From the IMG/VR virus record IMGVR_UViG_3300010400_000028, positions 1 through 45,963 of that record: a DNA stretch of 45,963 nt; one strand, written 5' to 3'. The translations under genes and the position numbers were made by a program. The stretch's first letter is position 1. Every line of letters starts with the position of its first letter. The notes under the pieces are model-generated. The model had not been told where the DNA came from, did not search any database, and saw only the letters and a list, made by a program, of their open reading frames with translations. Shown here one piece after another: positions 20,428-36,957 of this stretch. The DNA is from a virus.

Positions 20428-20898
20428 TCAGCCCGCCTTCCGCGCGTCGGGCGCGCCGTAGAGTGCCGAGTATTCGGGGTCGGCCTCGACGCCCTCGCCG
20501 GCGTAGCCGGACGCCACCACCGCGAGCGCGGAGTTGGGCGTCAGGGTGTCGATGAGGTTGCGCGTCCCGTCCGGGTCGGCGTCCCACAGCCGCGAGAAGT
20601 GCAGCTTCTGCGCGGGCGTGAACTTGCCGGCCTGCACGGCCTTCGCGATGACCTCGTCGCGCTCGTCGCGCTTGGTCTTCGCGACGTGGTCGGTGAGAAC
20701 CTTGATGTCGCGCTGCAGCTGCTCGTACGTCGAGCTCGCCAGCACGACCGTGCCCGGGGCCGCGCCGGCGGCAACCGGCGCGGGCGCGCCCTCGGGAGGT
20801 GCGATTTCGGCGTCGAACGCCGTCCTCACCTCGTCGTCGGAGGCGTCCGGGTCCAGGCCCAGCGCCTCTCGGATCTTGGCCTTGTCCAGATTGGACAT
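20428..20898 (-). CDS. Nested scaffold protein from an internal start
   Basis: Within the protease frame an ATG at 20898 is preceded by AAGGAG with a 6-nt spacing, a strong ribosome site in a place where none is needed for the long product. It gives 156 residues: helical start 'MSNLDKAKIREALGLDPDAS', acidic Pro-rich linker, then 'LQRDIKVLTDHVAKTKRDERDE' and the capsid-binding-type C-terminus. This mirrors lambda C/Nu3 and similar nested protease-scaffold genes. Expression of the short form is predicted only. Confidence 0.65.
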   Translation of the reverse strand: MSNLDKAKIREALGLDPDASDDEVRTAFDAEIAPPEGAPAPVAAGAAPGTVVLASSTYEQLQRDIKVLTDHVAKTKRDERDEVIAKAVQAGKFTPAQKLHFSRLWDADPDGTRNLIDTLTPNSALAVVASGYAGEGVEADPEYSALYGAPDARKAG

Positions 20899-21732
20899 AC
20901 GGACTCCTTGGTTGGGTGATGGTGCGACCGCCTCCGCGGCGGGGACTGTGGTGTCGCCGAAGCTGGCGACAATGCGGGTGCCGGACGGCTCCAGCGGGCC
21001 GGACGCGGCCACACCGAGGGCGCCCGGCAGGTCGCGCAGGCTCCTGATGGACGACATGCCGGGCGGGGTGATGCCGAGCAGCGCCAGGGCCTCGACGACC
21101 AGGCCGTACTTTTCGCCGTCGTGCTCGTAGTCGGCCCAGCCTTCGATGGATCGGTCGGGCCAGTGGTGCGGCATGGCCGCGGCCAGCCATTCGGGCATGC
21201 CGGCCAGGTCGCCCTTGAGGACGTGGTCCTGGTCATCCTGCTCGACCCGCACGTTGTGGACCCAGCCCAGCGCCGGTTCACCGTCGCCCGGCGCGAACCG
21301 CTTGTCGGTGTGGCCGATCTTCAGGTAGGCCGGGCGGGCGCCGTCGCGGTTGGCGAAGCGGGCGGCGTCGTCGAGCATCCGCGGCGTCACCGTGAGCGGC
21401 CCGGATGCGAGCTTCCACGTGCCCGGCCGGGCGAGCTCCACGTCGCGCAGCTCGGCGGCGGCGGTCACCTGGTCGGCGACGCGGATGCCGAGGCGCCGGG
21501 CCGCCGCCCGGATCTTCGGCATCGCTTTGTCGCCGAACGGCGACTGCGGTGCCCGGGCGAGCGCGTTGCGGACGTGGGGCTCGTCGTGGATCGGGAAGTG
21601 CCGCAGCGACCGGGGGACGGTCCTGCCCTGTTCGTCCTTCGTGCCGCCCGGTTCGATGTAGGCGAACGCGCTGTCGGGCAGGTCGTTGATGGCGGCTGAG
21701 GACATCTGCGCGCCGGTCACGGCATGCGTCAT
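20428..21732 (-). CDS. Prohead protease with C-terminal scaffold (Mu I-like)
   Basis: A 434-residue protein. Residues 1-90 have the conserved head of Mu gpI-type protease fusions ('LPDSAFAYIEPGG', 'RSLRHFPIHDEPHVRNALAR'). Residues 95-260 hold the protease core, including 'YLKIGHTDKRFAPGDGEPALGWVHNVRVEQ' and 'DRSIEGWADYEH', with candidate catalytic Ser and His residues. The C-terminal 156 residues form charged helices typical of a scaffold. The ATG at 21732 has AAAGGTGG 5-8 nt upstream. An in-frame internal ATG at 20898 could make the scaffold alone. Confidence 0.8.
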   Translation of the reverse strand: MTHAVTGAQMSSAAINDLPDSAFAYIEPGGTKDEQGRTVPRSLRHFPIHDEPHVRNALARAPQSPFGDKAMPKIRAAARRLGIRVADQVTAAAELRDVELARPGTWKLASGPLTVTPRMLDDAARFANRDGARPAYLKIGHTDKRFAPGDGEPALGWVHNVRVEQDDQDHVLKGDLAGMPEWLAAAMPHHWPDRSIEGWADYEHDGEKYGLVVEALALLGITPPGMSSIRSLRDLPGALGVAASGPLEPSGTRIVASFGDTTVPAAEAVAPSPNQGVRMSNLDKAKIREALGLDPDASDDEVRTAFDAEIAPPEGAPAPVAAGAAPGTVVLASSTYEQLQRDIKVLTDHVAKTKRDERDEVIAKAVQAGKFTPAQKLHFSRLWDADPDGTRNLIDTLTPNSALAVVASGYAGEGVEADPEYSALYGAPDARKAG

Positions 21733-21778
21733 CGCCCGCACCACCTTTCGGTATGCGGGCTAGCGCCCGGGGATCAGA

Positions 21779-21895: not shown

Positions 21896-22399
21896 TCAGC
21901 CGGGGCCGACGACGTCGCCGCGCGGCGGCTTGCCGTGCGTGACCCGGTTCAGGTCGCTGCCTGCCGCGAACCCGAAGACCTCAATGAACCACCGGCTGGC
22001 GAACGTCTTGGCCTTGACCGGGCCAACTTCCGGGATCTTCGACAGCAGCGCCACCAGCGTGGTCCAGGGCGTGGGCGAATCGGCCCAGCGCGCCAGGCCC
22101 TCGCCCCGGGTCCAGTAGTGGTGCAGCTCGTCGTGGCCCGGGGTGACGTCGTGGCCGGCCGCGGCGGCAACGGGCGCTGGCTCGTCGTCGTCGATCTCGG
22201 CGAGGATCGCGACGATCGCGGCGTTGAGCTCGTCCTCCGCCTCCGCGGGCGCATACAGGTCGACGGCGTGCAGGCCGCGATCGGCCATGCCGGCGTACGG
22301 ATCCTGGTCCAGGGGCGGAACCGTCACCGAGTCGGCGTGCTTGAGCGCCCACTCCGAGTGCAGGTCGGCGATGCGGCGCATCGCCTCGGCCCGCTTCAC
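21896..22399 (-). CDS. Conserved hypothetical with HhH-like motif
   Basis: A 167-residue protein. The N-terminus is a charged helix ('AEAMRRIADLHSEWALKHAD'), then an acidic middle, then 'PWTTLVALLSKIPEVGPVKAKTFASRWF', which looks like a helix-hairpin-helix DNA-binding turn ('IPEVGPVKA'). I chose GTG at 22399 because it overlaps the stop of the preceding gene (GTGA) and has GGAGAG upstream; a GTG at 22420 would add 7 residues. Position between portal-linked genes and protease suggests a head protein or packaging accessory. Function unknown. Confidence 0.58.
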   Translation of the reverse strand: MKRAEAMRRIADLHSEWALKHADSVTVPPLDQDPYAGMADRGLHAVDLYAPAEAEDELNAAIVAILAEIDDDEPAPVAAAAGHDVTPGHDELHHYWTRGEGLARWADSPTPWTTLVALLSKIPEVGPVKAKTFASRWFIEVFGFAAGSDLNRVTHGKPPRGDVVGPG

Positions 22400-24084
22400 A
22401 GCTGCTTCTCTCCGGACCACATGCTGCCGAGCATAATTTGCTTCCCCGGCCAGGTCGATGCCCCCGGCACCCAGCCGATCATGGCGAAGTCGATCGGTTC
22501 GGCGTTGAGGTTGTTGGCCACCCGGCGGATCTGGTCCTGCACCTCGGGGCTGAACCGGCGGCCGATCTCCAGCGCCCGCTCGGCGACGTCTCGGCGGCTG
22601 TGGAAGTCGCCGAAGCTGAAGCCGGCCTTGGCCCAGGCGTAGCCTCCGACCTCGGTGGTGCGCAGTCGGATCTGTTCGATGCCGTGCTGGCGGAACGCGT
22701 CCTCGAGCTGCCCCAGGTAGCGGCGGGCGAAGCCGTGCTTCTGGTGCTCCGGCTCGAGCACGATCGCGGCCAGGTCGACGATGCGGGCGGCCGCCGGGCG
22801 GATGTTGTGGTCGACGACGCCGACCACGTTGCCGTCGCCGTCGAGGATGTGCGCCGACACGTACGTGCCGCTGCGGTTGCGGCTGATGCTCTTCACGCGG
22901 GCCCGCAGGCCGGTGCGCTCGTCGTCGAGGTTGAACGTTGCCCGGATGGTCGCCTCGTCGTGCAGGTCCTCCGGCCGGCGCCCGCCGCCGCCACGGCTAC
23001 GGCCGCCCAGCCCGGGGCCGGGACCGCGCAGCGGCACCCAACCGTGCTTGTACCGCTGGCCCGGGTACGGGTGCCCGGCCGCCACCGGCGCACCGCCGGC
23101 GAGCGGGTAGTCGATGACCTCGTCGCCGAACGCAACCCGGATCCGGTCGAAACGCACCGGCCCGGTCCGGTCGGTCAGCTCCGCCACCATCTCCGGTTCC
23201 GCGTCGTAGACCAGGGTGATGTGCGGGATCCACGGCTCGTGCTGCTCCGGCGACGCCTCGACCTCGCCGGCGACGGCGTCGTGCACGTCGGCCAGCTCGG
23301 CGCCGGAAAGGCCGAGCACGATGCACGGGTCGCGCTCGTCGGACTCAGGGTTGAACAGCGAGATCGCGAACCCGTCCGCGTCGAACGGCGCGAACCCGGC
23401 CGCGACGTCGGCCACGGCCGCGGTGACCGCGTCGCGGGCATCGTCGTCGTAGTCGGCCGCCTCACCGAGGTACAGCAGCGTGCAGTGCAGCTCGTCGACG
23501 GGCTCGCCGGCGTCGACGGCCAGGCGCTCCGCGTCGTCGTCGGCGGGCACCAGCGCCACCATCGCGCCGGTGTGCTCCTCCTCGGACCCGGACGAGTCAT
23601 AGGCGGCGGTCACCTGCGACGCCGAACGGTCCACGCACGGCGACAGCGTGTGCGCGTCCTTCAGCCGCCGCATCAGCGCCGGGCTGACCGAGCCGGTCGG
23701 CTTCATGCCGAGCTTGGCCTGGATCGCCTTCACCGCGGCGTCGGTGTGCGGCCCGAACACACCGTCGACCGCGACGTTCGCCAGGCCCAGCTCGGCGATG
23801 AGCGCCTGCAGCTGCTTGACGGCCGCCGGGTCGTTGTTGCGGCCCATCTTCAGCGTGGTCGTGCTCGCCGGCGGCGCGGCCGCCTTGGACCCTCCGCCGC
23901 TGGAGCGTTGGGTGCCCTGGCGCTTGCCCGAGTAGGTGAGCTTCCCGCGAGGTACGGAACCGCTCGTGCCGCCGCCTCCGCCGCCGGTGCTGGTGAATTG
24001 ACCGCCGGCAGGGCTGCCGGCCGGGGCGTGGGGGTGCTGGGAGTCGTCGTACTCGGTGGCTCGGGCGGCGACCGGACTCGACAC
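22396..24084 (-). CDS. Polyvalent head protein: PG-binding, 2H phosphoesterase, GNAT
   Basis: About 562 residues. After 'DSQHPHAPAGSPAGGQF', a motif common in phage head and MuF-type proteins, come: a peptidoglycan-binding repeat (about 80-145, 'VKQLQALIAEL...VDGVFGPHTDAAVKAIQ'); a 2H phosphoesterase domain with two HxT motifs, 'HCTLLYLG' near 200 and 'HITLVYD' near 288; a conserved 'YKHGWVPL' linker; and a GNAT acetyltransferase-like C-terminus (about 390-495, 'LAAIVLEPEHQKHGFARRYL', 'WAKAGF'). GTG at 24084 is chosen for the GGGGGTGA upstream; ATG at 24102 would add 6 residues. Related 2H enzymes degrade cyclic nucleotides, including Acb1 against CBASS. Enzyme activity is not shown here. Confidence 0.72.
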   Translation of the reverse strand: MSSPVAARATEYDDSQHPHAPAGSPAGGQFTSTGGGGGGTSGSVPRGKLTYSGKRQGTQRSSGGGSKAAAPPASTTTLKMGRNNDPAAVKQLQALIAELGLANVAVDGVFGPHTDAAVKAIQAKLGMKPTGSVSPALMRRLKDAHTLSPCVDRSASQVTAAYDSSGSEEEHTGAMVALVPADDDAERLAVDAGEPVDELHCTLLYLGEAADYDDDARDAVTAAVADVAAGFAPFDADGFAISLFNPESDERDPCIVLGLSGAELADVHDAVAGEVEASPEQHEPWIPHITLVYDAEPEMVAELTDRTGPVRFDRIRVAFGDEVIDYPLAGGAPVAAGHPYPGQRYKHGWVPLRGPGPGLGGRSRGGGGRRPEDLHDEATIRATFNLDDERTGLRARVKSISRNRSGTYVSAHILDGDGNVVGVVDHNIRPAAARIVDLAAIVLEPEHQKHGFARRYLGQLEDAFRQHGIEQIRLRTTEVGGYAWAKAGFSFGDFHSRRDVAERALEIGRRFSPEVQDQIRRVANNLNAEPIDFAMIGWVPGASTWPGKQIMLGSMWSGEKQL

Positions 24085-24106
24085 GCGATCACCCCCGGAC
24101 ATGACG

Positions 24107-24150: not shown

Positions 24151-24369
24151 TCAGAGGTCGTCGGGCACGTCGGCCGGGTCGGCCCACGACTGCGCCGGCA
24201 GCTGCTCGTTCTCGATGATCAGCTGCTGCACGTCCGGGGACAGGCTGTCCCAGGTGACGTTCTCGACCATCGCCTCGCGGATCGTCTTGCGGTCGTTGGG
24301 GTGCACGTCGCGGGTGCCGAGCAGCCGCTCGACCCGGTGGATCACTTCGGCGGTTTCCGCTGCAAGCAT
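24151..24369 (-). CDS. Small acidic hypothetical protein
   Basis: A 72-residue helical, acidic protein ('AAETAEVIHRVERLLG', 'DRKTIREAMVENVTWDSLSPDVQQLIIENEQL'). No Cys or membrane segment. Its ATG overlaps the last codon or stop of the portal gene by one base, so it is likely translated by coupling. A hairpin separates it from the next gene. Possibly an assembly partner of the portal fusion; no known family. Confidence 0.55.
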   Translation of the reverse strand: MLAAETAEVIHRVERLLGTRDVHPNDRKTIREAMVENVTWDSLSPDVQQLIIENEQLPAQSWADPADVPDDL

Positions 24370-27300
24370 CAGGCCTCCTCAATGATGAGGATAGACCGGT
24401 TGAGCACTGTGAACGACACGTCGCCCCTGTTCGGGTTGATGTGGCTGCTGCCCCTCGTGCCGTACGGGATCTCGATGGCGTCCAGTCCGATCGCGGCCGC
24501 GTACCGGCCCTCGTCGTACAGCGTGGCTTCCTCGCCGGAGCTCGAGTAGGCGCTTGCGATCGAGTGGGCGTCGCCGGCGACGTCTGTGTGCTTGCGGGTC
24601 ACGGCCGTCTTCGGGATCAGTGCCCGGGCGACGCTGCCGCGTGTGCCGTCGGAGTAATCGTCCTTCACAACCTGCTTGTTGCTGGCGAAGTAGTAGCCGT
24701 TGCCGAACATACCCGTCCCGTAGTACGCCGCCCCGCTGCGCATCTCCTCGTTGATCTGGGCCGCCGTCTTCGACTGGCTGACCGACGAGCCGGACCGGTT
24801 CGGCCCCGAGATCCGCTGCGCGCCGACGCCGCGGACGCCGCGGAAGACCTCGATGTAGTCGCCGGTGGCGAGGAGGTCGTCGATTTCCTGCTTGGTTGCC
24901 ACGGTCGGCACGTCGTCGAAGCCCTGCATCGCGCCGATCGCGGCCAGCCGGTCGTCGGCCGCCTTGCCGGCGTACGCCCGCCGTTGGCCCTGAACGTCGT
25001 GCAGCAGGCGGGACCGGGTCTGTGCGTCGGGCATGAGGTTCCTGCCAGTGGACGGCTTGTGCCGCACGGGTGCCGCGTGCACGGTCGGCGTGCCCGTCAG
25101 CCGCGCAGGCCGCTTCGTGGTCGCCCCGGGCCGGGTGGCCTGCGTCGGGAACAGCGTCATGACGTTCTGCTGCAGCTTCCCGCCGGCGAGCGGGCTGAGC
25201 AGCTTGCCCTGCTGGTCGAGCTGGTCGATTTCGGCGCGGGTCATCCATTTCGCGTCCGCGGTCTCCATGCGGGCGTGGTGGCTGGAGAGGTCCGGCTTGA
25301 TCTGCTTCGGCACGGTGGCGGCGACGCTGATGTACGCCCATGGGACCTGGCCGCCGTGCAGGCCGGGTACCTGCACCCTCGCGTCCTCGTGGGTGTGGGT
25401 GCCATGCACCCGCGCCTGGTCGAGGTCGGCGGCCTGGAACCCCAGCTCCTCGATGACCTCACGTGCGGCGCCCTGGTAGAAGCTCTCCTTCTCCTCCTTG
25501 GCCCCGCCGGGGAACTGCCACTTGCCCGGGTCGGAGATGCCCGGGCCGCGCTGCACCATCAGGAACCGCTCGTCGCCGGTGGCCGGGTCGACGTGGCGGA
25601 GCATCAGCCCGGCCGCGCCGTACTGGCCCCATGGCCCTGAACCGCCGGCCGAGGTGCGGGTCCAGCCGTCTCCGCTCGCCCCGCGTCGGCCAGCGGGCAG
25701 CATTGTGAGCAGGTTCGGTGTGCCGAGTGGGTCGGCGACGCGGGTCTGTGCGGAGACGGCGCCGGGCGGCGGGACGATCGCCTGCGGCGGGAGGGTGCCT
25801 GGCGCCGTGCCTGCCGGCGTGAACCGGTTGATGATCTGCTCGGCCTTGGCCTTGTTCGGGCCCTTCGACGTGGTCGCGATGTACGACAGGTCGCCGAGCA
25901 TGACCTGCTGCTCGGCCAGGTCGAGGCTGTCGAAGTGGCTGCGGCGAAGGTCGCCGTACACCTTCAGCTGCTGGCTGGCGGTCTTGCCCTTCGGGTCGAG
26001 GCCGTAGATCACGTCCTGGGCGGCCTTCACGGCCGGGTCGACGTGTACGGTGCGCGGCCGCGGCGCCGGCGGTGGGGGTGGCGGCGGCGGGGCCAGGGTG
26101 AGTATGAGGGCCGATGAAAGGTTGCGGGTGGTCATCCGCGGCGGGATGGCCATGTTGTTCTTCCGCGCCGCGGTCATCAGCTGCGCGCGGCTGAACCCCG
26201 ACAGCGGGTCGTTCGGGTCGTGGGCGCCGCCGCCCTCGGCGATGTGCAGGTTGACCGCGTGCTGCACGCGCTCCGGAACCGTCGGCTGCCGCCCCCACGA
26301 CGGAGCCATGGGGCTGGCGGTTGGCGCCGGCCAACCCGTAGTCGTGAATTCGGTGCGCAGCGCATCGAGGGCGTCGGCCTGGGTGGCGTAGTGCTGGCGG
26401 GTGAACGGCCACGAGTAGCTGCCGGGGCTCTGGAATGCCATCCAGTCGCCGGTCGCCATTTCGTGAACGCCGCCGATGTACTGCCCGCCGTAGAACGCGT
26501 GGGCGGACGACTGGATGCCGGCGCCGTTGGACCTGAACGGCGCGATGGTGATGCCGTTCGGCAGGCCCGGCGCGACGCCCGCGACCGCCGCGGTCGGCAG
26601 CGGGACGCCGTGGTAGATGAACACCGCGCGGGCCGCGTCGTCGCGGGTCGCGTAGGGCGGCGTACCGACCGGGTTCCGGTTCGCGTCGTACGCGAGCCAG
26701 CCGAGGCCTGAGTTGTGGACCTCACCGATCTGCGTGCCGTTGAAGTCGACTGCGTCGCCTCCGGCTGCCAACGACCGCAGCGACCCGCCGGGCGGGAACG
26801 GCGGCGGCGGTGGAGGCGTCGGCGCCTGGCCGGTGCCGTGCGCCTGGGCGAGCTGGTTGAGGTTGTGTGCGTCGACGAGCGCCCGCACCGCGTCGTCCTT
26901 GTTCGGGTAGAAATTCCCGCTCGGACCGGTGCCACCCTGCAGCGCGTAGCCCGCGCTAACGGGCGGCACGGCCATCCACTGACCGCTCACGCCGGTGCTG
27001 TGGACGTGGCCGACGTAGTTGGTGCCGAGATCTACGTTGAGATCATTCGTGTTGGAGGCGGCGGAGTTGATGAGCGAGAGCGTCACTCCGGGCACGCTGG
27101 TGCTCAGGGCGACGCGGCGCTGGTGGCGGTTGACGAGCGCCTGCACCGCGTTCGCCTTGTGCTGGCTGTTGCCCTGCACGGCGACGTGGGTGCCGGCAGC
27201 GTCCTCGGCGGTCCAGTAGCCGCCCGACCACTGGTGGATCGCGCCGATGTCGGTCGTGCCGATCCGCAACTTCAGCGACTGCCGCGACGGACCCCACGTG

Positions 27301-29558
27301 CCCTGCTGCGGCGTGGTTGGCGTCTGCCAGACGTCGGGCACCCCGCCGGTCAGGTTCGTCGTCAACTTCCGGGCGGTAGGAGCGGCGCCCGCCGGACCCG
27401 CCGAGGGCGCGTTGTGCTGCAGGTGCGCGGACACCAGCGCGGCCATCGCGTCGCCGCCGCTCGGGAAGCCCTGGCCACGATTCGGCACCGAGTACCCGGC
27501 GCCGGTCGGTCCGATTACCCGCCAGAACCCTGACCCCGGCCGCGTTTCGTACAGCTGGCCGACGTCCGCGCCGTTGAAACGCACCTGGATCGAACCGCGG
27601 CCGGAGCCGGGAATCTGCTGCGCGGTGATCTGCGCGACATGGTTGTCGAGCATCTGCTCGAGGCGGGAGTGTGGCGTGCGCGGCGGCACATGCAGGCCCA
27701 ACGACCGCGCGGCCGACCGCAGCTGCGCCGGCGTGAACTGGGCCAGCGCCCCGGCCGGCGCCGACTTGCCGGACCCAACGTGCAGGGCAGACATGAACCG
27801 GCCGATGACGGTCCGGAACCGGCCGTGGGAACCGCGCGGGTGCAGCGAGGGGTTCCAGTTCGCCGCCGCCACCGGCTCGCCCGACTCCGCGGCGAACTCG
27901 GCCATGTCCCGCAGCGCCTCAACGAAGACGTCCGCCTCGTCCGGGTCGAGCGTGATCCCCTCGCCGTCAGCCCACCGCGCCGACACGTCACCGGTCGGCT
28001 CCTCCAGCACGACCAGACCGTCCTCGGAGGACTCCTCGCCCTCGTCAACGGCGGCCTCGACCATGTCGGCCCACGCCCAGGCCTCGTCGGCATCAGGTGC
28101 GGCCAGGACCTCGCCGGAGCTGCCCCGGATGGTGACGGCCCCGCCGCGGTGGGCGATGACCGCGCAGCTGGCCGTGACCTGAATCCGCTCGATCTCCTCG
28201 CCGTAGCCGTCAGCGTCGGAAGTACCGGCCGCGGCCGGACCTTTTGGGTCGACACCACCGGCCGCCGCAACCCAAGGGGTATCCGGCGGCGGCGCCATCT
28301 GCCCGGCCGCGCCTGCGTCGCCGCTACGCGTGCTGTCCGGGTCCTTCGGCGGCAGCCCGTACTGCTGGCGGGTCGACTCCTCCAACACCTCGTCCGGCTG
28401 CAGGATCCCGGCGTCCACAAGGGACTTGATCGCCGCCGCCGTCGCCGCTTGACGCGACCCGATCTCATCGAACACGATCTTCGGTGCCGGTTCGTCCGTG
28501 CCCCAGTTCACGTCGACCAGGTCCTCGACCACGTGCTGCGTCGCGACGTCGGCAACCTGCTCCGCAAGCGTCTGCAGCGACATCGTGAAGAAGTCGGCGA
28601 ACGTCGTGCCCAACGCCCAGCTGCCGGTCTGCGTCCCGAGGTTGAGGAAGTGCGCCAGGACCGCACGGCCGATCTGCTCGTCGTGGTAGCGCACCGCCGG
28701 TTCCGCGTCGGGCAGCGTGCCGGACACCCCCACCAGCGTCAGGTCGGCACCGAACGGAATCGCCGACCCGGCCGCCTCACCCGAACGCCACGCCTTCGCC
28801 ATCGCCAGCCCGGACGCGTGCGCGTCCGGTGTGGCGCCCTCGGCATCCTTGTACAGCGGGATGCCCATGCCGTTGCGTTCGATCGTCTGCGCCTGCACCC
28901 GCAGCAGCCGGTCCTTGAGCAGCCAGTTCTTGTACGCCGGCCGCAGGATCGACTGACCCAGCCAGTTCCCGCCCTCCTTCTCGTGCACGTACGCGACGAG
29001 ACGATCGACCGGGATCGGCTGCGGGCTCGTGTTCGTGGTCGTCCAGTACTGCTTGATCGACTCCAGTCCGCCGTCGGCCGCGACGTCGATGCGCTCGATC
29101 GTGTTCGGCATGCGCGGGCCCAGCTTGCGCAGGTGCGCCCGGCCGCCGTCGTCGTCGACCCGGTACGTCTGCTCGAAGTACATGTGCCCGAACGGCAGCA
29201 TCAGCAACGCCAGCCGCAGGTGCTCGGCCCACGAGAAGCGGTCCTTCGTGCGCGGCGGCGCGGCCGGGTTGCGGCCCACGATCGGCAACCCCAGGTCGTC
29301 CGCGACGAAACGCACCACCTCGTCGCGGGCCCCGTTCGGATCCAACCGCCACGTCGTGCGCCGCACCGGCAGCGTCATGGCCCGCAGCACCGACGTCACC
29401 TGCGAGTCGGTGCGGCGCATCGTGTCATACACGCCGATCGACTGCGGCCACATCAACTCGGGCGTGGTCTCGTTCTGGTACAGCCACCAGTTGTAGTTCG
29501 GGGCCTGCGCGTAGCCGATCTCGTGCGTCGGGGCGAGCGGCTTGGTCGTGGTGGTCAT
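24369..29558 (-). CDS. Giant portal fusion: portal, repeats, Nudix, ADP-ribosyltransferase-like
   Basis: About 1,729 residues. 1-430: portal of the DUF935/Mu gp29 type ('FGHMYFEQTYRV', 'LGQSILRPAYKNWLLKDR'). 570-582: 'NPSLHPRGSHGRFRT'. 608-645 and 1122-1157: SAP-like helices ('FTPAQLRSAARSLGLHVPPR', 'FSRAQLMTAARKNNMAIPPR'). Five repeats of about 55 residues, near 655-715, 760-815, 840-900, 935-985 and 1020-1072, each with a 'G..VG.vh' strand, W and a 'DA..AL...H' helix. Poly-Pro linkers follow. Nudix domain 1315-1475 with box 'GGAKEEKESFYQGAAREVIEELGF' region. 1568-1729: ADP-ribosyltransferase-like fold, 'EVFRGVRG' and 'GMFGNGYYFAS', then 'VLNRSILII'. ATG at 29558 has GGGGGG upstream. Normal portals are 450-550 residues. 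The portal call is firm; the C-terminal activity is inferred. Confidence 0.85.
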   Translation of the reverse strand: MTTTTKPLAPTHEIGYAQAPNYNWWLYQNETTPELMWPQSIGVYDTMRRTDSQVTSVLRAMTLPVRRTTWRLDPNGARDEVVRFVADDLGLPIVGRNPAAPPRTKDRFSWAEHLRLALLMLPFGHMYFEQTYRVDDDGGRAHLRKLGPRMPNTIERIDVAADGGLESIKQYWTTTNTSPQPIPVDRLVAYVHEKEGGNWLGQSILRPAYKNWLLKDRLLRVQAQTIERNGMGIPLYKDAEGATPDAHASGLAMAKAWRSGEAAGSAIPFGADLTLVGVSGTLPDAEPAVRYHDEQIGRAVLAHFLNLGTQTGSWALGTTFADFFTMSLQTLAEQVADVATQHVVEDLVDVNWGTDEPAPKIVFDEIGSRQAATAAAIKSLVDAGILQPDEVLEESTRQQYGLPPKDPDSTRSGDAGAAGQMAPPPDTPWVAAAGGVDPKGPAAAGTSDADGYGEEIERIQVTASCAVIAHRGGAVTIRGSSGEVLAAPDADEAWAWADMVEAAVDEGEESSEDGLVVLEEPTGDVSARWADGEGITLDPDEADVFVEALRDMAEFAAESGEPVAAANWNPSLHPRGSHGRFRTVIGRFMSALHVGSGKSAPAGALAQFTPAQLRSAARSLGLHVPPRTPHSRLEQMLDNHVAQITAQQIPGSGRGSIQVRFNGADVGQLYETRPGSGFWRVIGPTGAGYSVPNRGQGFPSGGDAMAALVSAHLQHNAPSAGPAGAAPTARKLTTNLTGGVPDVWQTPTTPQQGTWGPSRQSLKLRIGTTDIGAIHQWSGGYWTAEDAAGTHVAVQGNSQHKANAVQALVNRHQRRVALSTSVPGVTLSLINSAASNTNDLNVDLGTNYVGHVHSTGVSGQWMAVPPVSAGYALQGGTGPSGNFYPNKDDAVRALVDAHNLNQLAQAHGTGQAPTPPPPPPFPPGGSLRSLAAGGDAVDFNGTQIGEVHNSGLGWLAYDANRNPVGTPPYATRDDAARAVFIYHGVPLPTAAVAGVAPGLPNGITIAPFRSNGAGIQSSAHAFYGGQYIGGVHEMATGDWMAFQSPGSYSWPFTRQHYATQADALDALRTEFTTTGWPAPTASPMAPSWGRQPTVPERVQHAVNLHIAEGGGAHDPNDPLSGFSRAQLMTAARKNNMAIPPRMTTRNLSSALILTLAPPPPPPPPAPRPRTVHVDPAVKAAQDVIYGLDPKGKTASQQLKVYGDLRRSHFDSLDLAEQQVMLGDLSYIATTSKGPNKAKAEQIINRFTPAGTAPGTLPPQAIVPPPGAVSAQTRVADPLGTPNLLTMLPAGRRGASGDGWTRTSAGGSGPWGQYGAAGLMLRHVDPATGDERFLMVQRGPGISDPGKWQFPGGAKEEKESFYQGAAREVIEELGFQAADLDQARVHGTHTHEDARVQVPGLHGGQVPWAYISVAATVPKQIKPDLSSHHARMETADAKWMTRAEIDQLDQQGKLLSPLAGGKLQQNVMTLFPTQATRPGATTKRPARLTGTPTVHAAPVRHKPSTGRNLMPDAQTRSRLLHDVQGQRRAYAGKAADDRLAAIGAMQGFDDVPTVATKQEIDDLLATGDYIEVFRGVRGVGAQRISGPNRSGSSVSQSKTAAQINEEMRSGAAYYGTGMFGNGYYFASNKQVVKDDYSDGTRGSVARALIPKTAVTRKHTDVAGDAHSIASAYSSSGEEATLYDEGRYAAAIGLDAIEIPYGTRGSSHINPNRGDVSFTVLNRSILIIEEA

Positions 29559-29573
29559 GCGCACCCCCCGCGA

Positions 29574-31205
29574 CTAGAAGCCAACCGTCATCAGATCCGA
29601 CGACTCCGAGTAGAAGTCCCTGGTCTCGTGCGCAGCGAACGACGGCGGCAGCGGCGCCCGGCGCAGCTCCGGCATCGTCATCGCCGCCTCAAGCGCCAAC
29701 ACCGCCCCGATACCGGCGTCGATCTTCCCCCGGTTGGGGCCCTTCACGAACACGTACTTCGTCCGGCCGTCGTCGTCCTCGTCGCGCACCCGCACCTTGC
29801 GCTTGTGCATCGCCAGCACGTGCGCGGTCAACGTCGACGACCCGTCGTGCCACAGACCGCCCTCAGTGGACAGAGCCGTCGAGAACCGGTCGCACGCCCG
29901 CCACATCCGCGTCGGCTGGTTGGTGTCGAAGAGCACCACCCGGTCCTCGCCGTGCTCCTCGGCCATGTACTCGAGCTCCGTCTGCCACTTCGCCGGGTCG
30001 GCCAACATCAGCCCGACCGAGTAGTAGCCGAACACCTCGGCGACCCGCTCGCGGATCTCCTTACGGGGCATCCGCCAGCCGCGCGGCGCGTCGTCCGGCC
30101 GCTGCCACACCTCGATCTCGAACAGGAACGGCACCCCGTCGACGAGCGTGCAACCGATCAACGAGGTGCAGTCATCGGAGATCGAACCGTCGAACCCGAG
30201 CCCGACGTGCGCCCCGGCCGGCACCAGAATGTCCGGCCTAGCCCGGGTCTCCCAACGCGCGAGCTCCACCGCCCGGGCTCGGTCGCCCACGTTGTGGTTG
30301 AAGAAGAACCGCTCCGACTCGTCCCACGGCGTCTCCGGGTCCCGGATGTCCTGCAGCAGCCGCGCCTTGTCCACCCACCACGAGTCGCCGTACGCCACGC
30401 CCAACGCGGCCAGCAGCGTCTCGTCCGGGTCGTCCTGTTTCACCGGCGGCGCCTCGACTGCGTCGTAGTAGATGCCCTCGCCCTCCTGGAAGGCCCGGTG
30501 TGTGCCCTCCATGACCGAACCCTCGCCCGGCACGAAGCTGTTGCCGGTCTCGTACGAGCGGCCGCCCATCTTCGCCACGTTGCGGCGCAGCGTCCGCGCG
30601 AGTCGCACGCCGCCGTTGGTCGGCAGCCACAGCTGCGTCTCGTCGAGGTGGGCGTCGGTGATCGGCTGCCCCTCGCGCGTGCCGGCCGACGCCGTCACCG
30701 GCTCCAGCTTGCCCGGACGGTTGCGCAGGAAGCAGCGCGTCAGCCCGACGTCGATGCGCAGGTCGTCGGCGGCGCGCCCGTCGTTCGCCGTGAGGAGCTC
30801 GTGAATGACCGAGTACGTGTTCTCGGTCTGGTCCTGCGACACCGCGGCGATCTGCACCCACGGATTCGGGTCGCCCTTCGTGCCCCACGGCCGGCCGACC
30901 GGCTCGCCCGAGGAGTCGAACCCGTCCGGGCGCACATCGCCGGCGAGCTCGGCGACCGCCTTCGCCGCCTCACGCGGCGACTTGCCCCAGCCCTTCGCCC
31001 GGCGCGACGCACCACGCCGATACACGTACCGAAGCGTCACCGGGTCGAACGTGTACCACTCGATGAACCCGAGCGCCTGCTCATCGGTGAAGATCAGCGG
31101 CTCGTCGTGGTTACGCGGCGAGGGCAGGAAGTCCGCGAACCAGTCCAGCAGCGACCAGCCCAGCGACGGCAGCTCACCCTCGTACTGGGCGCCACGCCAC
31201 GGCAT
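29574..31205 (-). CDS. terL: Terminase large subunit
   Basis: A 543-residue protein. ATPase domain with an atypical Walker A around 66-76 ('GASRRAKGWGKSP') and Walker B near 180-190 ('ITDAHLDET'). The C-terminal nuclease domain has 'GLGFDGSISDDCTSLIG' near 335-350, with candidate metal-binding Asp residues, and a second acidic segment 'KIDAGIGAVLALEAAM' near the C-terminus. It lies between the small subunit and the portal, and starts 3 bp after the small subunit stop. It drives DNA packaging. Sequence alone does not tell cos from headful packaging. Confidence 0.9.
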   Translation of the reverse strand: MPWRGAQYEGELPSLGWSLLDWFADFLPSPRNHDEPLIFTDEQALGFIEWYTFDPVTLRYVYRRGASRRAKGWGKSPREAAKAVAELAGDVRPDGFDSSGEPVGRPWGTKGDPNPWVQIAAVSQDQTENTYSVIHELLTANDGRAADDLRIDVGLTRCFLRNRPGKLEPVTASAGTREGQPITDAHLDETQLWLPTNGGVRLARTLRRNVAKMGGRSYETGNSFVPGEGSVMEGTHRAFQEGEGIYYDAVEAPPVKQDDPDETLLAALGVAYGDSWWVDKARLLQDIRDPETPWDESERFFFNHNVGDRARAVELARWETRARPDILVPAGAHVGLGFDGSISDDCTSLIGCTLVDGVPFLFEIEVWQRPDDAPRGWRMPRKEIRERVAEVFGYYSVGLMLADPAKWQTELEYMAEEHGEDRVVLFDTNQPTRMWRACDRFSTALSTEGGLWHDGSSTLTAHVLAMHKRKVRVRDEDDDGRTKYVFVKGPNRGKIDAGIGAVLALEAAMTMPELRRAPLPPSFAAHETRDFYSESSDLMTVGF

Positions 31206-35940: not shown

Positions 35941-36334
35941 GGTCGTTCTCCTCGATCTCGTAGCGGCGCGCGAGCGACAGCACCTCGGCGCACGGCCACG
36001 GCTCGACGCAACGGCACTCGTCGTGACTCGCGAGCGGGGCGCCGCCGAGCGTGGCCTGCTGATGCCGCTCCAGCACGTCGAGGTCTTCGGCGCAGTGGCG
36101 CACGACGGTGGCCGGGTTCTCGGCGGCGATGTGGTCCATGACGGCCTGGGTGCCGTCCATGGCCAGCCACAGCACCGGCTCCTCGTCGGCGTCGAAGATC
36201 TGCGGGTGCGGGTGTTTCGCCTCGACGTAGCGCTCGTAGCGGTACCACTCGGCGGCGCTGTCCGTCGCCGCTGCCTGTGCTCGTTCCCGGCGTGCTTCGA
36301 TCGCGGCGCGGATCCGGTCGTGAAGGTCGGTCAT
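35933..36334 (-). CDS. DUF6221 family protein
   Basis: A 133-residue protein. 'MTDLHDRIRAAIEARRERAQAA', then 'YVEAKHPHPQIFDADEEPVLWLAMDGTQAVMDHIAAENPATVVRHCAEDLDVLERHQQA' and 'CRCVEPWPCAEVLSLARRY' fit the DUF6221 family, found in Streptomyces phages and genomes. ATG at 36334 overlaps the ParB-like stop (ATGA). Function unknown. Confidence 0.75.
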   Translation of the reverse strand: MTDLHDRIRAAIEARRERAQAAATDSAAEWYRYERYVEAKHPHPQIFDADEEPVLWLAMDGTQAVMDHIAAENPATVVRHCAEDLDVLERHQQATLGGAPLASHDECRCVEPWPCAEVLSLARRYEIEENDRG

Positions 36335-36957
36335 ACGGCCTCCTGGAAGCAGCTGCACGAGGCGCAGTGCGGGCGCTGCGCCGCCGAGGCGCGCTGGGCC
36401 GGCTCCTCGGGCCGGGCCTCGCGGTGGTCACGTTCGGCGCGGCGTTGCGCCACCGTGGCCAGCGCGTACCGCACCGGCATCCGCCCGGCCGACACCTCGG
36501 CCCGCTCCCGTTCGTCGAGCATCAGCAGCGACAGCCGGTCCGACACCCACCGCGGCGCATGCCCTACCGCCCGGGCCACGTCTTCGAGGCGTCGCTTGTG
36601 GACGAACACGAGCTCGTGCAGGGCGTGCGCTTCGGCGATCGGGTCGAACGCGCGGGCCAGGGCGTGCATCGCCAGCTGTCGGGTGATGCGGGTGGCGTGG
36701 TCGGCGCCGTTGCGGATGACCGCGTCGACGTAGTCGAGTCCGGCGTGGTCGCAGGCGGCGAGGCGGCGGTGGCCGTCGAAGACGGTGAATGTGCCGTCGC
36801 CGTTGTCGGCCACGATCAGCGGGTCCTGTTGGCCGATGGTGCGCATCGACGTGGCCAGGTCGGTGACGTCGCCCAGGTCGCCGCGGGCGTTGGCGCCGGG
36901 CCTGACGCGGTCGATGGGGATGCGCAGCACGGCGCCGATCTGCACCGGGGCGGTCAT
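36331..36957 (-). CDS. ParB-like nuclease-domain protein
   Basis: A 208-residue protein. The ParB/Srx N-domain at 10-95 ('IPIDRVRPGANARGDLGDVTDLATSMRTIGQQDPLIVADNGDGTFTVFDGHRRLAAC') has the GHRR box. An HTH-like segment follows at 120-150 ('LEDVARAVGHAPRWVSDRLSLL'). The C-terminus has 'CASCSC'. ParB-like proteins bind DNA and CTP in partition, or act as nucleases or regulators in phages. ATGA overlap with its neighbour in the replication cluster. Confidence 0.78.
   Translation of the reverse strand: MTAPVQIGAVLRIPIDRVRPGANARGDLGDVTDLATSMRTIGQQDPLIVADNGDGTFTVFDGHRRLAACDHAGLDYVDAVIRNGADHATRITRQLAMHALARAFDPIAEAHALHELVFVHKRRLEDVARAVGHAPRWVSDRLSLLMLDERERAEVSAGRMPVRYALATVAQRRAERDHREARPEEPAQRASAAQRPHCASCSCFQEAV

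Follow-up and report, generated by a model that had tools for sequence, protein, structure and literature searches.

Several phage systems are known in which head-module proteins carry effector domains. Fusions of portal or MuF proteins with ADP-ribosyltransferase (ART), Nudix, and 2H domains have been published, with a proposal that they are injected (Iyer and co-workers; PMC5512222 and PMC9503650), and the same papers supply precedents for head-packaged ART and Nudix fusions, including T4 Alt, an ART that is packaged in the head and injected with the DNA (PMC5512222). The MuF toxins of temperate phages are polymorphic and come with immunity open reading frames (ORFs), the immunity genes of polymorphic toxins being small ORFs located directly downstream (PMC5576092). 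For Bxa, a prophage ART, neutralization by immunity proteins has been shown experimentally (PMC11699363). Here, we describe a 1,729-codon portal gene in an uncultivated virus record of IMG/VR (IMGVR_UViG_3300010400_000028; 45,963 bases, the whole of which is called the window below). Its product continues beyond the portal core into repeats, a Nudix domain, and an ART-like domain, and a small ORF follows it. We consider it probable, with some reservation, that this protein is a portal-borne polymorphic effector whose C-terminus serves as an exchangeable effector slot.

The fusion protein resembles the polyvalent proteins of Iyer and co-workers in being a large multidomain head-module protein with several effector-type domains, and ART and Nudix are each reported there as fused to portal or MuF proteins (PMC5512222 and PMC9503650), which supports the kinship drawn in the first-pass annotation of this sequence. 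It differs from the fusions described in the passages surveyed in that ART and Nudix form one conserved cassette, common to unrelated portals and accompanied by a co-traveling small ORF. Like the MuF toxins (PMC5576092), it has a carrier in the head module that exists in short and long forms, its C-terminal effectors vary and include ARTs, and a small ORF lies directly downstream. Here, however, the carrier is the portal itself: neither Pfam nor PHROG matches a MuF domain in the fusion protein, and MuF is present in the related loci L005, L006, and L040. A constant carrier with exchangeable C-terminal modules, as in polymorphic toxins, is also what we observed, and the small downstream ORF is tied to the effector by position and co-occurrence. 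Bxa of Bacteroides stercoris (PMC11699363) is likewise a prophage-encoded ART in a polymorphic toxin layout with cognate, neutralizing immunity proteins; it uses another carrier, and the likeness drawn here is one of arrangement. T4 Alt is an ART carried in the head and injected with DNA, a route that is proposed for the fusion protein, but it is a separate protein of the R-S-E clade, whereas the fusion protein has Arg and Tyr, with Ser at the Glu position. In the literature surveyed, which is incomplete and no proof of priority, we found no description of a conserved Nudix-ART cassette across four portal types, of one portal lineage whose many effector tails are interchangeable, or of a small gene tracking this ART family.

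Exchange of portal tails and of the Nudix-ART cassette

The fusion gene runs on the minus strand from an ATG at 29558 to a TGA stop at 24371-24369 without internal stops. The following features bear on the comparison with its relatives.

28329-29558, minus strand: Mu-type portal core, residues 1-410 (PF06074 Portal_Mu / PHROG 113)
25809-26033, minus strand: helical domain opening the conserved cassette, residues 1176-1250 (conserved in cassette relatives; helices in the AlphaFold2 [AF2] model)
25134-25682, minus strand: Nudix domain, RenU-like and extended at its N-terminus (SGDGW..WGQYGAAG), residues 1293-1475
24372-25061, minus strand: PARP-like domain of probable ART fold, residues 1500-1729, with Arg1573 (FRG), Tyr1623 (GNGYY), and Ser1715 at the PARP Glu position
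24151-24369, minus strand: 72-amino-acid acidic ORF, candidate immunity/antitoxin gene, starting inside the ART stop codon (TGATG)

Profile matches to Pfam Portal_Mu (PF06074; residues 43-402, E 1.3e-59) and PHROG 113 (residues 5-459, E 6.6e-96) show that the fusion protein contains a full-length Mu-type portal; the first-pass annotation had called a DUF935-type portal of normal length. The nearest cultured portals, those of Gordonia phages Sahara and Sekhmet (~60% identity), are ordinary proteins of 445-446 amino acids. A search with the portal alone found 124 relatives, 80 of which (61-80% identical to the window portal) were kept. Among the 69 with a visible stop codon, 46 end no more than 100 residues past the core, and another 21 carry a tail of 300 residues or more. 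The long-tailed portals are grouped in one clade of the portal tree, where they make up 31/36 of the rows, and the closest portals in the lineage likewise have tails of 1.1-1.3 thousand amino acids. This ART family occurs in the tails of nine contigs besides the window, two of which carry two copies; other tail modules are ADPrib_exo_Tox domains, SAP domains, the repeat of the window (L143), and Nudix with ADPrib_exo_Tox (L102). Tail content changes among close relatives: no common tail sequence was detected between the window and L099 (portals 80% identical) or between L102 and L110 (89%). When the next ORF was inspected for known effector modules in tailless members of the long-tail clade (L101, L103, L109, and L114), the only match was to SAP, in L114. 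The portal tail of L157 contains three separate ADPrib_exo_Tox-like domains, and the portal tails of L149 and L099 (1,701 and 1,431 amino acids) match none of the effector profiles used, except for a weak SAP match in L099, and may hold unrecognized effectors.

A second kind of exchange concerns the last ~570 residues of the fusion protein, a cassette composed of the helical domain, the Nudix domain with its SGDGW...WGxyGAAG extension, an HKPSxGxNL linker, and the terminal ART-like domain. A search with the whole protein returned five contigs that mainly share these 570 residues. A search with the alignment of those five contigs yielded 40 loci (the underlying patterns lie in the Nudix part) and placed the cassette in over 35 other IMG/VR contigs. 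With two loci that end before the C-terminus (L035 and L037) excluded, 38 loci could be scored for ART, and 37 of them encode one on the same polypeptide as the Nudix domain. The ART is PARP-like at 35 loci and of the ADPrib_exo_Tox type instead at L039 and L040; none was detected at L041, and L002 carries both types. A weak Nudix match aside, the cassette was not found among 50,697 phage records; GTDB genomes as scanned gave 72 pattern matches and no relative, and plasmids showed only Nudix similarity.

The cassette is fused to four portal types, namely, PHROG 113 (the window), PHROG 776 (L003/L004), PHROG 2662 with MuF (L006), and PHROG 12 (L030), and at many other loci it forms a separate giant ORF between the portal/MuF gene and the head protease gene. 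The cassette of L007 is 64% identical to that of the window versus 50% to that of L030, whereas its portal, 63% identical to that of L030, is not matched to the window portal by blastp, a pattern that, judged from these identities, is one of direct exchange of cassettes between portals. Both the Nudix and the ART domains are under purifying selection (ratio of nonsynonymous to synonymous substitution rates, 0.04-0.58). The first-pass annotation had regarded the combination of domains as unusual; Nudix-ART is instead a recurrent mobile cassette and not a one-off. Two loci in this set have further peculiarities. At L039:1191-12356, an open frame of 3,722 codons encodes a 2H domain, a splicing domain resembling an intein, SAP/HeH, ADPrib_exo_Tox, Rho_N repeats, and Nudix and matches GNAT weakly, and at L002:2480-5953 the portal gene beside the cassette is apparently split by two intein/LAGLIDADG insertions, one of which is like terminase-family inteins.

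The Nudix and ART-like domains

The Nudix domain is recognized by Pfam (residues 1329-1447, E 1.7e-13), and its Nudix box (GX5EX7REUXEEXGU) is intact, with acidic residues that are invariant in 35 relatives. Its closest relative in the PDB by sequence is RenU (6uuf; E 1.9e-13), and the AF2 model of the domain matches the RenU fold (E 6.5e-10, probability 1.00, target TM-score 0.73-0.75), so that both the complete box and the high-probability (above 95%) Nudix hit anticipated in the first-pass annotation were found. The likeness to RenU includes the GDGW/WG.hGAAG N-terminal extension; RenU, however, is a stand-alone host enzyme, and in 6uuf, Ala occupies Glu positions of the Nudix box, in agreement with the inactive mutant described in the paper on RenU; the phage protein, in contrast, has an intact box. 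RenU of M. smegmatis hydrolyzes ADP-ribose, FAD, and NADH, and NAD+ is not hydrolyzed (PMC4401782). Because RenU is the closest relative in both sequence and predicted fold, a substrate of the NAD/ADP-ribose type is our best guess for the phage domain.

The C-terminal domain probably has an ART fold. The stretches FRG, GMFGNGYYFAS, and LNRSILII singled out in the first-pass annotation are present and aligned across the family, in which the conserved pattern consists of an Arg (FRG/WRG/YRG), a Tyr (in GNGYY, the counterpart of PARP1 GKGIY), and a strand at the C-terminus. The AF2 model of the domain is confident (predicted local distance difference test score [pLDDT], 91.5; predicted template modeling score [pTM], 0.88), and a Foldseek search of BFVD matched it to viral ART-PolyVal and PARP proteins at probability 0.90-0.94 and to uncharacterized phage proteins at 1.00. 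No Pfam family matches the fusion protein's own ART domain, and the assignment is made because relatives carry profile matches: ART-PolyVal in 26/34 family members (best E 6.7e-4) and PARP in 20/34 (best E 9.6e-5). On the scale of whole contigs, the ART-PolyVal and PARP scores lie below curated cut-offs, though this place alone is matched. An ART profile with distant members added gave PARPs as 29/34 of its PDB matches with E up to 10, all of these being weak (best E 0.16). Two motif-scan matches (L072 and L078) contained no convincing ART and were discarded, as was a match in Enterococcus phage nattely, a thymidylate synthase hit by chance.

Compared with the H-Y-[EDQ] clade of ARTs, the family has Arg (FRG/WRG/YRG) in place of His in all members; the Tyr of the GxYFA motif is present (Y1623, invariant); and the third position is Ser1715 in the fusion protein rather than Glu, Asp, or Gln. 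Relatives without a Nudix domain have a C-terminal strand reading EEWVVLN, EEFVILN, or NEYIVLN (the last in L091), versus NEYIVYD in PARP1, and this alignment indicates that the PARP catalytic Glu is present in them. Ten Nudix-less ARTs keep the Glu, and some other Nudix-less relatives are without it. All Nudix-linked ARTs form one clade on the ART tree (support 100/99), so the loss of Glu in that clade represents one evolutionary event, not 36. For this reason, and since some Nudix-less relatives also lack the Glu, we do not count the pairing of a gained Nudix domain with a lost Glu as independent evidence.

Small ORF, proposed mechanism, and alternatives

The 72-amino-acid ORF, which was not among the observations of the first-pass annotation, has homologs of 54-90 amino acids (a few being the start of a longer ORF) that mostly overlap the ART stop codon. 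Such a homolog lies directly behind the ART in every cassette locus with an intact C-terminus, regardless of the portal, and also behind most Nudix-less ARTs (L066, L068, L075, L087, L091, L093/L121, L100, L107, L113, and L126). In the portal-selected set, it accompanies 7/10 contigs with ART versus 0/71 without (hypergeometric chance of ~3e-8, shared ancestry ignored). As the ORF sits where polymorphic-toxin immunity genes lie, and given the Bxa precedent, we propose that its product is an immunity protein for the ART, a proposal by analogy for which co-occurrence is no proof.

Combining these elements, the portal core would form the DNA gateway of the head, and the tail, with its junction motif, five beta-rich repeats, and helical domain, would position the Nudix and ART-fold domains inside the head or at the portal. 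The C-termini of portals generally face the interior of the head; hence, the tail most likely lies within the capsid, close to where the DNA leaves. Together with the DNA, the two domains would then enter the next host, either intact or as cleavage products, following the precedent of T4 Alt. In the host, the ART-fold domain would act on a macromolecule or on NAD+, and the substrates of the Nudix domain would be ADP-ribose, NADH, or similar molecules, perhaps including what the ART itself produces. During virion production, the 72-amino-acid acidic protein would restrain the ART. A broader and more tentative version, which may well prove too ambitious, treats the portal vertex as a polymorphic toxin/effector carrier: about twelve effector copies would be placed at the DNA exit, most ARTs having a dedicated immunity gene; a previously undescribed R-Y-[E/Q] PARP-like ART family would supply many of the effectors; and in one of its branches, loss of the catalytic Glu and acquisition of an ADP-ribose pyrophosphatase of the RenU kind would have produced a machine that targets NAD in two steps.

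Several observations weigh against a portal-borne effector of this kind. Foldseek of the ART model against the PDB returned no ART match, so the ART hit above 95% probability envisaged in the first-pass annotation was obtained only in part, BFVD giving ART-PolyVal and PARP proteins at 0.90-0.94. The sequence profile of the cassette-clade ARTs found no ART in the PDB at E<=10, and hhalign matched PARP1 weakly, at probabilities of 4% and 21%. In 36/36 scored Nudix-linked ARTs, the place of the PARP Glu is taken by Ala, Asn, Ser, or Gly, and with Ser1715 at the position of the PARP1 catalytic Glu, transferase activity of the fusion protein's ART cannot be assumed. Space for a dozen of these tails on one portal may be difficult to find, there is no known cleavage site, the small ORF could have another purpose, and all relatives except GodonK, a cultured Gordonia phage, are uncultivated contigs.

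The uniform loss of the Glu, set against the ten Nudix-less ARTs that keep it, would also suit a role in counter-defense, in which an ART fold without transferase activity binds NAD+ or ADP-ribose derivatives while the RenU-like Nudix domain degrades immune signals derived from NAD soon after infection begins. RenU chemistry is suited to ADP-ribose or NADH, the neighboring 2H/Acb1-like protein is likewise suited to the degradation of nucleotide signals, and Iyer and co-workers proposed this role for phage Nudix domains. The Nudix linkage, however, is a single event on the ART tree, so the link to Glu loss is not independent evidence; the NAD-site Arg and Tyr remain invariant; and a harmless binding domain would need no immunity-like ORF. 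PARPs without the Glu can, moreover, still mono-ADP-ribosylate. We therefore regard counter-defense as a doubtful explanation that nonetheless deserves to be kept in view. A purely structural tail that organizes DNA or the portal vertex inside the head, its enzyme-like domains being decorative or inactive, is improbable: the SAP domains in relatives, the beta-rich repeats, and the repeated helical domains hint at binding or spacing, but 46 related portals do without any tail, close relatives have swapped tail content, and the Nudix catalytic residues are invariant.

The small ORF might instead encode a helper that activates the ART-fold domain, adapts it for packaging, or serves as its chaperone. 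Its size, acidity, and translational coupling also fit a chaperone, and it is missing beside 3/10 ART loci in the portal lineage; it nevertheless tracks the terminal ART across unrelated portals, with or without Nudix, like immunity genes do, and we consider such a helper role unlikely rather than implausible. That portal and cassette come from different genomes joined during assembly is extremely improbable. The window is a metagenomic contig, and a second contig with the same junction was not found, but third codon positions keep a G+C fraction of 0.86-0.98 over the entire ORF, giving no sign of a frame error; similar portal-cassette fusions occur on independent contigs; and the closest portals of the lineage are also long-tailed. 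Given the open frame, the even codon composition, and the independent fusions, we rejected a frame error or chimera. The frame error that the first-pass annotation had named as a possible refutation is thus not seen, and its reading of portal, repeats, Nudix, and ART-like domain as one gene holds for a single intact ORF.

The portal-borne effector that we favor would be a recurring, concrete case of a structural head protein of fixed copy number and position carrying swapped effector cassettes. The concepts of polyvalent proteins and MuF toxins would thereby reach the portal, for uncultivated phages with Gordonia-phage-like portals, with the gateway possibly doubling as a carrier of weapons or counter-defense enzymes. 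With a candidate immunity partner named, toxicity is directly testable, and the predicted NAD chemistry (ART fold and RenU-like pyrophosphatase) is assayable with purified domains.

Remaining parts of the tail and neighboring genes

Between the portal core and the cassette, the tail contains the following segments.

27804-27854, minus strand: junction motif WNPSLHPRGSHGRFRTV, residues 569-585, recurring near head-module/effector boundaries in relatives
27639-27743, minus strand: SAP-like segment 1 (weak, by eye), residues 606-640
27411-27596, minus strand: repeat 1, residues 655-716
27114-27281, minus strand: repeat 2, residues 760-815
26853-27047, minus strand: repeat 3, residues 838-902
26601-26756, minus strand: repeat 4, residues 935-986
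26343-26510, minus strand: repeat 5, residues 1017-1072
26094-26198, minus strand: SAP-like segment 2 (by eye), residues 1121-1155

The five divergent repeats of the first-pass annotation are beta-rich, with pairwise identities of 25-33%, and they withstood a leave-one-out test in which every copy outscored 2,000/2,000 shuffles; the repeat profile independently picks up two further copies each in L002 and L007. Its two SAP-like motifs fared less well, as neither is recognized in the fusion protein by Pfam or by a local SAP profile, although Pfam calls SAP in several relatives. Residues 563-691 align with residues 589-725 of L091 (29%), where the local SAP profile matches. The repeats, the helical domain, and the SAP-like parts would serve for spacing or for contact with DNA. 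L067 and L074 have about four to five copies of the helical domain in their N-terminal portions, which makes this domain a possible general spacer or stalk unit. The junction motif occurs nine times in the protein set versus 0.3 in shuffles, and it is also present in the tails of many relatives and in gp67 of GodonK; this HPRG..GRF motif is a candidate processing/cleavage or docking signal. In the form [FWY]xxxxHPRGxxGKF/RF, it appears near head-domain/effector junctions and at polyvalent-protein N-termini (P0002 residues ~18-35, L005, L006, L010, L030, L040, and L052).

GodonK gp67 (MK620899; L052:4707-9146) is a 1,479-amino-acid protein encoded directly after the portal of a cultured phage, with the HPRG motif at its N-terminus and a related ART region near its C-terminus. 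It differs from the fusion protein in having no Pfam Nudix match, in being separate from the portal, and in that its ART region is interrupted by extra sequence. Annotated only as hypothetical, it is suited to laboratory work.

The genes around the fusion include other members of the head module.

29574-31205, minus strand: terminase large subunit (PHROG 9, E 5.9e-42), directly upstream of the portal fusion
22396-24102, minus strand: second polyvalent protein of 568 amino acids with a peptidoglycan-binding domain, a 2H phosphoesterase (2'-5' RNA ligase/Acb1-like), and GNAT
20428-21744, minus strand: head maturation protease (PHROG 3894, E 9e-55)

In Gordonia phages Sahara and Sekhmet, the protease follows the portal at once, with no equivalent of the 568-amino-acid protein between the two, so the window has an extra ~1,300 portal codons, the 72-amino-acid ORF, and the 568-amino-acid ORF. 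The 2H phosphoesterase of the latter shows weak similarity to the anti-CBASS protein Acb1 (E 4.5e-4), and segments of this protein reappear at many loci with related portals of the same lineage. Farther upstream, the window encodes a protein with a ParB-like partition/nuclease domain (36331-36957, minus strand).

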